Below are positions 26,691 to 31,120 of a stretch of DNA of 64,000 nucleotides, piece by piece (positions within the stretch are counted from its first letter, which is position 1; each line of letters begins with the position of its first letter). The notes beneath the pieces are model-generated. The model worked only from the letters and a program-made list of their open reading frames with translations. It had not been told where the DNA came from and searched no databases. The stretch covers positions 1 through 64,000 of the forward strand of contig JAUWPV010000003.1 in the NCBI GenBank assembly GCA_030611385.1. The letters are read 5' to 3'. This DNA is from Bacillota bacterium. GTDB lineage: Bacteria; Bacillota; Dethiobacteria; DTU022. The translations under genes were made by a program, and so were the position numbers.

Positions 26691-28337
<1,647 letters not shown>

Positions 28338-28410: not shown

Positions 28411-28455
28411 AATAAGTTAAAAAAATGGTGTCAGACACCGATTTGTTAACTTATT
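28411..28455. repeat. Inverted repeat with AATAAGTTAA arms (dispersed-repeat family)
   Basis: AATAAGTTAA (28411-28420) and TTAACTTATT (28446-28455) are perfect inverted arms. Between them is an inner palindrome GGTGTCAGACACC (about 28427-28439). The right arm covers the last codons and stop of trpB2. The arm sequence is the same 9-mer found at 5080-5107 and 33001-33028. This may also work as a terminator for trpB2. Confidence 0.65.
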
Positions 28456-29804: not shown

Positions 29805-29829
29805 TGACAAAACCTCCTATTTCTTTTTT

Positions 29830-30150
29830 TTTTAAAAAAAATAACTTCCGTCCGGGGACGGGAGTTATTCGCGGTACCACCCTGGTTACCTGTAAAAACA
29901 GGTCGCTTATATCAGATGCGGAAAACTTGTCTTGCCGCTTTCCAGACCTGCTTTCTTTTAACGGTGAAAGTTCCGACCGGGTCTACTCACGTACTTACGC
30001 TTTCAGCCGGTACCTCCAGGAGCCATTCACCAAGTTCATCAACACCGGAATCTCAGCTTCGGAAGTTTATTGCTTCCTCGATCCGGTTCTCTTAGTTGAC
30101 CTGTTCCAGGCTACTAGTTCCTGTCATTGGTTAGTATTCACAATCTTTGA
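29830..30150 (-). promoter_or_regulatory. T-box riboswitch (tRNA-Trp type) upstream of trpB2
   Basis: On the minus strand the conserved T-box core AGGGTGGTACCGCG spans 29883-29870. It is followed by a terminator hairpin, about AATAACTCCCGTCC pairing with GGACGGAAGTTATT (29869-29840), then a T-run. Upstream, stem I features are visible (ACTAGTAG, AAGAGAACCGG). The most likely specifier is TGG (Trp) at 30025-30023 within GTGAATGGCTCC. Uncharged tRNA would pair with UGG and, through its NCCA end, with UGGU in the core, to block termination. The codon assignment is by position and context. Confidence 0.9.
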
Positions 30151-30156
30151 TTATGG

Positions 30157-30185
30157 ATAATAGCATAATGCTGTTATCCTGTCAA
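30157..30185 (-). promoter_or_regulatory. Sigma-A promoter for the T-box/trpB2 transcript
   Basis: On the minus strand, TTGACA (30185-30180), a 17-base spacer, and TATTAT (30162-30157) preceded by TGC, an extended -10. The start would fall near 30150, just before the T-box stem I. Confidence 0.75.
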
Positions 30186-30224: not shown

Positions 30225-30746
30225 TCAGCGATCAAAATAAATACTTTTACCAGTGGCCGAAATAGGCACGCCGATTGCCATTTCGCCTTCGATCATATTT
30301 ATGCGCCGGGCGACGCTACCGATGCGGTACATAATGCGGTTATCAGCATTGAAAAGGGAGGCTGTTTTAACAGCTGAACCGAGAGCAATGCCAAAATCAA
30401 TCAGGCGCCAGGCACAGAGGGGGCCGCTGAATTCGGGGCCTTCTTTAAGAGTACCTTCTAATTCTACGCAGGTATCGAAACCACAGGCGCCGCAGTTCAG
30501 CCCGAGACAACGTGACTCCTTCAGGGAAAGGAGCAGTACAGCAGCGGAAGCGCGCACATTTTCGCTGTCACGGTCGAAGTTTGGCTTACCGGATTCTTTG
30601 CCGAATTTTAACATTTCATCAGCAAGTTTACTCAGGTCGTTCCCGCTTAAAATTTTAATTTCAATAAAATCATTTCCGCTGGCTTTTGGTGCAGTTCTCG
30701 CGGCAATGGCCATCATACCGGCAACAGTTTTCAGATATTCATCCAT
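30225..30746 (-). CDS. DUF2148 ferredoxin-domain iron-sulfur protein
   Basis: A 173-residue protein with the cysteine cluster CLGLNCGACGFDTC in its middle (about residues 80-93) and another Cys in GPLCAWR, typical of DUF2148 proteins thought to bind a 4Fe-4S cluster. The N-terminus (TVAGMMAIAARTAPKASG) and the DFGIALGSAVKTA segment also match the family. The ATG at 30746 follows GGAGG. The role is unknown; the family is common in anaerobes. It stands between the T-box locus and the purine operon and is transcribed away from the latter. Confidence 0.85.
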   Translation of the reverse strand: MDEYLKTVAGMMAIAARTAPKASGNDFIEIKILSGNDLSKLADEMLKFGKESGKPNFDRDSENVRASAAVLLLSLKESRCLGLNCGACGFDTCVELEGTLKEGPEFSGPLCAWRLIDFGIALGSAVKTASLFNADNRIMYRIGSVARRINMIEGEMAIGVPISATGKSIYFDR

Positions 30747-30928: not shown

Positions 30929-31120
30929 AGGGAAAGTGTGCCTAGGGTTCCGACGGATTAAAGACAAAGTGCCGGGATGGTCTTCCGCAATTCTGTCGTC
31001 CGGGCTGGTCCGAGTGGCACAGACATCCAGGGTTGATAAAATAATTTTTTGGATGTCACACCGGAGGGATAAAAGCCCAGGCGGGTAGGTTTCACTCGAC
31101 ACCTATCTGTTCGGGTTTTT
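30929..31120 (+). promoter_or_regulatory. ykkC-class riboswitch with terminator, probably PRPP-sensing
   Basis: The conserved ykkC blocks appear in order: CTAGGGTTCCG (30942-30952), GGTCCGAG (31007-31014) and GGAGGGATAAAAGCCC (31063-31078). An accessory stem GACATCCA/TGGATGTC (31022-31057) lies between. The last aptamer bases overlap a terminator: CCC at 31076 onward pairs with ACCTATCTGTTCGGG (31101-31115), with wobbles, then TTTTT. Ligand binding should therefore prevent termination (ON switch). Subclass 2b (PRPP) is chosen because purE and the whole purine operon follow; guanidine and ppGpp subclasses are nearly identical in sequence. No tandem guanine aptamer was seen. Confidence 0.8.

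Follow-up and report, generated by a model that had tools for sequence, protein, structure and literature searches.

In the T-box mechanism, as set out in the part of a review available to us, uncharged tRNA docks on the leader by its anticodon and its 3' end and holds the antiterminator, and in known structures of the family a conserved purine follows the specifier. In the accessible sections of the TBDB paper (PMC7778990), U stands against G in 46% of Trp T-boxes, a wobble that had been noted earlier still. In Dehalococcoides, a T-box precedes a 'trpB-like' gene, and the available text (Wels et al., 2008; PMC2494555) places another before trpE. For Geobacter, the portion of the genome paper at hand calls TrpB2/TIGR01415 an indole-scavenging beta2 protein, and names a T-box before leuA only (PMC2700814).

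The locus described here lies within a window of 64,000 nt, the whole stretch of DNA analyzed, from a bacterium of the Dethiobacteria (contig JAUWPV010000003.1, assembly GCA_030611385.1). Its leader resembles the Trp T-boxes of TBDB in its UGG specifier and in the bulge U that faces G73, and we found no structural difference from them within the accessible description; the host and the gene constitute a new instance. As in Dehalococcoides, a T-box stands before a trpB-like gene, whereas here the genome is without trpA or indole-3-glycerol phosphate synthase (IGPS); and as in Geobacter, an indole-type beta2 protein is encoded apart from trpA, whereas here trpB2 is under its own T-box. The trpB2 leader is a well-made and ordinary T-box, and the original prediction of it was real and correctly read: the promoter, stem I elements, UGG codon, core and terminator claimed ahead of trpB2 are all present on the minus strand (Table 1). 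Stem III, the UGGU bulge within an antiterminator-capable core, and the overlap between core and terminator are likewise evident from the sequence.

Table 1. Predicted features of the trpB2 locus; positions are those of the window.
Feature	Positions	Strand	Basis
Sigma-70-type promoter, TTGACA-17-TATTAT, TG before second hexamer	30157-30185	minus	11 of 12 consensus bases
T-box leader RNA	29851-30136	minus	permissive Rfam scan, RF00230, 92.6 bits, E 1.3e-20
Stem I with specifier loop, AGAGA, distal loop	30013-30130	minus	Rfam alignment, covarying pairs, 22 leaders
Specifier codon UGG	30023-30025	minus	directly after GAA (30026-30028), one base (C30022) before helix UCCUG/CAGGA
Stem II (ACCGG/CCGGU)	29976-30011	minus	Rfam alignment
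Stem III (ACCUGU/ACAGGU)	29888-29903	minus	Rfam alignment and covariation
T-box core AGGGTGGTACCGCG / AGGGUGGUACCGCG	29870-29883	minus	Rfam alignment and sequence
UGGN bulge, N = U29876	29876-29879	minus	Rfam alignment and sequence
Intrinsic terminator hairpin, then U tract, competing with antiterminator	29839-29870	minus	folding and terminator search
Ribosome-binding site AGGAGG, 8 nt before ATG	29813-29818	minus	sequence
trpB2, TrpB-like PLP enzyme, 452 aa	29804 (ATG) to 28446	minus	open reading frame and profile matches
Terminator-like hairpin between convergent trpB2 and groEL	28426-28440	both	terminator search
groEL, convergent with trpB2	26721-28337	plus	named by eye

The leader matches the RF00230 covariance model end to end (model positions 1-219), at a score only 0.4 bits below the Rfam gathering score of 93 bits, which is a curators' bookkeeping limit and no biological feature; a default Rfam scan of the window is empty for this reason. 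It is one of nine T-boxes that the Rfam scan finds in the genome. Promoter-like sites between 28300 and 30400 number six, against 2.0 expected in shuffles. Folding of 29838-29880 returns the terminator (-15.9 kcal/mol, z -3.0), and the terminator search reports this hairpin with a shorter stem. The CGUCCC strand is common to this terminator, as given by single-sequence folding and the terminator search, and to the antiterminator, as given by the Rfam alignment and the consensus fold. In short pieces folded around the core, the terminator was seen and the antiterminator was not, which is expected of folding with no tRNA present and lends the antiterminator no support; the minimum-free-energy fold of the whole leader (z -2.9) likewise contained the terminator hairpin, but not the complete stem I of the model. 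As folding misses both stem I and the antiterminator, we relied on the covariance model and on comparison. Two-sided changes were found in 10 of 20 predicted pairs of stem I, in an alignment of 22 leaders from which six of 28 were omitted by choice, mostly because their 5' end had been set too far upstream. Compensatory changes affect five of the six pairs of stem III across all 28 leaders, in which stem III and the antiterminator together covary in 7 of 13 pairs.

The 3' strand of the specifier loop (5' ACUAGUA / 3' GAAUGGC, closed below by CAGGA/UCCUG) comprises seven letters here, versus the eight usual in Rfam (GAA-N-codon-A), and UGG and GGC are therefore both conceivable as the codon. 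Two other seven-nucleotide specifier loops in the genome, those of leuS and a leuA-like gene, have CUC straight after GAA and concur with UGG, and the six eight-letter loops also yield codons that fit their genes. With genes named by eye, the other eight T-boxes comprise CUC (leuA-like), UAC (DAHP synthase), AUC (ilvE), CUC (leuS), CGC (argG), AUC (ileS), UUC (pheS) and GGC (glyQ). GAA-UGG (GAATGG in DNA) stands upstream of the core in all 38 trpB2 T-boxes compared, this one and 37 relatives, although in one of them (G014) its distance to the core, 332 nt, is roughly double the typical one. Applying the TBDB '+0' frame, defined in the accessible text as positions 2-4 from the end of the specifier bulge (PMC7778990), also gives UGG. 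Among 22 leaders the base after UGG is G in 10, C in eight, A in three and U in one, and a covarying helix (alignment columns 120-123) begins right after this base. This base is C in the trpB2 leader and a pyrimidine in nine of the 22, which is the sole departure from the reviewed T-box mechanism. In the RNAalifold consensus, two bases of the specifier (columns 116 and 117) pair with the AGUA strand, which, strictly read, amounts to a partly closed specifier. The UGG claimed at the specifier position thus stood up to the check, no other codon having been found in the modeled specifier loop. We regard the UGG frame as firm; together with its constancy in 38 leaders, the identity of the downstream gene and the A that a GGC frame would need in the bulge to face U73 of tRNA-Gly, it supports a Trp-specific leader.

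The 3' end of the genome's tRNA-Trp reads CUCCCCU-G-CCA, such that its discriminator is G73 and bulge U29876 can pair with it only as a G-U wobble; the UGGU bulge can then join the tRNA 3' GCCA by this wobble and three Watson-Crick pairs. The original prediction had allowed the bulge U to pair with A or to wobble with G, pending a comparison with the genome's tRNA-Trp; now that G73 has been read, the wobble holds and the U-A pair does not apply to this tRNA. Such a wobble is usual among Trp T-boxes, and the point was both right and already known. The 38 trpB2 T-boxes divide evenly by bulge base, 19 with U and 19 with C, and the complete tRNA-Trp genes read for 28 of these (14 with U, 14 with C) all carry G73. 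More widely, our survey of 60 genomes, this one included, returned 46 complete tRNA-Trp genes, all with G73, two further partial pieces, and none in the remainder. A tree of 30 TrpB2 proteins, of which 13 have U, 15 have C and two are without a T-box, requires seven changes of the U label and eight of the C label, with at least six forced by well-supported branches. As the label changes repeatedly while G73 is unchanged wherever read, U and C are exchangeable over evolution against a fixed discriminator. The bulge base shows no association with the presence of trpA (9/19 U versus 8/19 C; Fisher p = 1.0). Alternation of U and C against a constant G73 provides a ready test set for the weight of the fourth bulge pair.

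The TrpB2 protein matches NF009057 at 748.8 bits (cut-off 366) and TIGR01415 at 660 bits (cut-off 518.85), and its closest solved chain is 6hul_B (446 bits), labeled tryptophan synthase beta chain. A 13-residue motif and GGGSN line up with that chain, and presumably represent the PLP lysine, the catalytic glutamate and the phosphate loop. As originally described, trpB2 is alone: it faces a convergent groEL, with terminator-like sites on both strands, and neither trpA nor IGPS was matched at E values up to 0.001 in this 99.4%-complete genome, in searches that were positive in all 14 control genomes. The usual route from chorismate to tryptophan is therefore closed, and indole has to come from outside the pathway; TrpB2 likely serves the salvage of imported indole. 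The proposal that tRNA-Trp charging controls indole salvage gains support from these absences by inference, and for this genome rather than in general, as trpA is present in 17 of the 38 genomes with the T-box/trpB2 unit and absent from 21, some of which are incomplete and their absences uncertain; occurring with and without trpA, the unit is not tied to pathway loss. Under a separate Tyr (UAC) T-box (G000:C24:34438-34711), a DAHP synthase gene stands with tyrA/aroA/aroC-like genes, as named by eye, which would place the common aromatic pathway under tRNA-Tyr control in a genome that has neither trpA nor IGPS.

The trpB2 survey comprised 44 loci in 43 genomes, this one included, 38 of them with a T-box core; matches lacking a 5' end (G037, G003 and a second piece in G041), weaker TrpB1-like matches and those to other PLP enzymes were left out. 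No core was found at the other six (L055, L076, L131, L132, L135 and L141), which include one of the two trpB2 copies of genome G016. Six loci from genomes of the source family agree base for base with named records over a test stretch of 500 bases, in six pairs compared; three of those records are labeled Syntrophomonadaceae bacterium CSSed... (Bacillota, Clostridia). Before some T-box-less trpB2 genes we observed, by eye, short GC-rich hairpin-like stretches, possibly another form of control. A gene for a DUF2148 ferredoxin-like protein (30225-30746) precedes the T-box, likewise on the minus strand; it was rejected as a fixed partner of trpB2, as just seven of 30 loci, counting the present one, have it upstream. 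Further upstream, at 30931-31085 on the plus strand and just before purE (31175), is an RNA of the Guanidine-I (ykkC) family (61.5 bits, gathering score 63), which, judging from its neighbor gene, may be the PRPP-sensing ykkC variant.

Taken together, the leader is very probably a T-box riboswitch of the transcription-attenuating type, through which the charging of tRNA-Trp(CCA) governs trpB2 as a unit of one gene, a proposal in which the switching itself is argued by analogy with the established mechanism of the family. When tryptophan is short, the anticodon CCA of uncharged tRNA-Trp would pair with UGG, and its 3' end GCCA with the UGGU bulge; the bound tRNA would hold the antiterminator, and transcription would run into trpB2. 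Charged tRNA-Trp would be unable to hold the antiterminator, and the terminator would form. As the genome is without trpA and IGPS, TrpB2 would most likely join external indole and serine to form tryptophan. The leader would thereby tie likely indole salvage to tRNA charging in an organism that lacks both genes.

Two readings of the leader itself would depart from this proposal. Were the specifier read one base later, as GGC, the leader would answer to tRNA-Gly. That codon is present at 30022-30024, the homologues read GGN there with the base after UGG free among 22 leaders, and in the accessible TBDB text some 60% of T-box specifiers end in C (PMC7778990). Against this, the three tRNA-Gly genes read from the genome carry U73, which cannot pair with the bulge U, and the genome's own Gly box, before glyQ, has A in the bulge and an eight-nucleotide loop. 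Further, the U before GG, for which a glycine reading has no need, is kept in all 38 trpB2 T-boxes, and the downstream gene makes tryptophan; we regard the glycine reading as extremely improbable. Only slightly more credible is a decayed T-box, in which U29876, facing G73, would be a mismatch and charging would no longer be sensed. U at this position in half of the 38 leaders, at least six label changes on the tree while G73 stayed constant, and the 46% of Trp T-boxes with U against G in the available TBDB data (PMC7778990) all speak against decay, as does the remainder of the leader, which is intact and covarying.

The Trp-specific T-box could also be as described while TrpB2 uses another donor or performs a different PLP reaction; phosphoserine is the donor for an archaeal TrpB2. 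NCBI models name the NF009057/TIGR01415 family merely 'TrpB-like', and the 17 of 38 genomes that have trpA as well as the unit show that the unit is not tied to the missing pathway. Trp-specific control nonetheless argues for tryptophan synthesis, as do the aligned motifs of the tryptophan synthase beta chain 6hul_B and the necessity, without trpA or IGPS, of indole from outside the pathway. We therefore hold a different reaction to be unlikely, albeit a more serious contender than either alternative reading of the leader, and favor synthesis of tryptophan from indole and serine.

Outside the window, the T-box before leuS in this genome (G000:C3:10442-10735, 109.6 bits) holds a tRNA-Ala(GGC) gene at the tip of its stem III, on the same strand (T-box at 1501-1794 and tRNA at 1671-1745 of locus L004). 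The assembly's 42 tRNA matches include no other Ala gene with anticodon GGC, and none at all for Ala-UGC or Ile-GAU, so that some tRNA loci may be missing from the assembly. An Rfam T-box match wraps the tRNA in all eight named loci tried, from five phyla, five of them above the gathering score. The best helix between the flanks of the tRNA averages 5.49 Watson-Crick pairs, and exchanging flanks among loci lowers this mean to 4.49, with 4.82 as the highest value in 200 exchanges. The method was crude, did not always pick the same helix, and was applied to 96 loci in which some records occur in duplicate; this comparison indicates that stem III is kept as a helix around the tRNA. On balance, we favor the view that the leuS T-box doubles as a tRNA-Ala(GGC) gene, with every round of transcription, terminated or not, yielding a tRNA-Ala precursor. 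The terminated leader would then be a tRNA transcript rather than waste, and leucine starvation would decide only the addition of leuS mRNA; we infer both expression as tRNA and retained switching. If so, RNAs regarded as ligand and sensor would be united in one transcript, which prompts the question of how a single leader accommodates both RNase P cutting and T-box switching. No description of a tRNA gene inside a T-box was found in the literature searched, a partial search that does not establish absence from print; the arrangement appears to lack an earlier description, and to be more surprising than the trpB2 leader.

A DNA search for the leuS element across 60 genomes gave 30 loci, that of the present genome among them, with matches well beyond the tRNA part; 28 lie in the source family (36 family genomes searched). 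In 29 of the 30 a T-box core comes after tRNA-Ala(GGC), and the remaining locus is cut off by a contig end behind the tRNA. Most other genomes searched gave shorter pieces only, chiefly the tRNA part, and the arrangement is therefore not universal. A pattern scan over 84,980 species genomes yielded at least 118 stretches (L175-L292), and at least 67 of the 118 listed contain tRNA-Ala(GGC) and a core with its pairing strand. Among the matches listed, a LeuRS match lies within 3.5 kb downstream in 64 of these 67, sometimes 1-2 kb away. By phylum, the 67 listed loci include at least 40 from Bacillota, 13 from Chloroflexota and three from Thermomicrobiota, at least two each from Coprothermobacterota, Armatimonadota and Atribacterota, at least one each from Caldisericota, Actinomycetota and Pseudomonadota, and at least two unplaced, with the proviso that labels of metagenome bins can be wrong. 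Another tRNA occurs in at least nine of the other 51 listed stretches, eight of which fail the pairing-strand test, while in the ninth (L285) the core departs from the T-box consensus; also among the matches listed, a Thermosyntropha lipolytica stretch (L201) has the core and LeuRS with no ARAGORN call. The arrangement thus recurs in Bacillota, in Chloroflexota and in several further phyla. Among 398 genomes sampled evenly across the phylum, the pattern was found in 80, versus two for the reversed pattern; in four of the 80 the matching sequence is without the tRNA end, and 76 remain. All but one of 19 sample matches retrieved are tRNA-Ala(GGC), the exception, which comes from those four genomes, being no tRNA; LeuRS falls within the short stretch retrieved for 15 of the 18.
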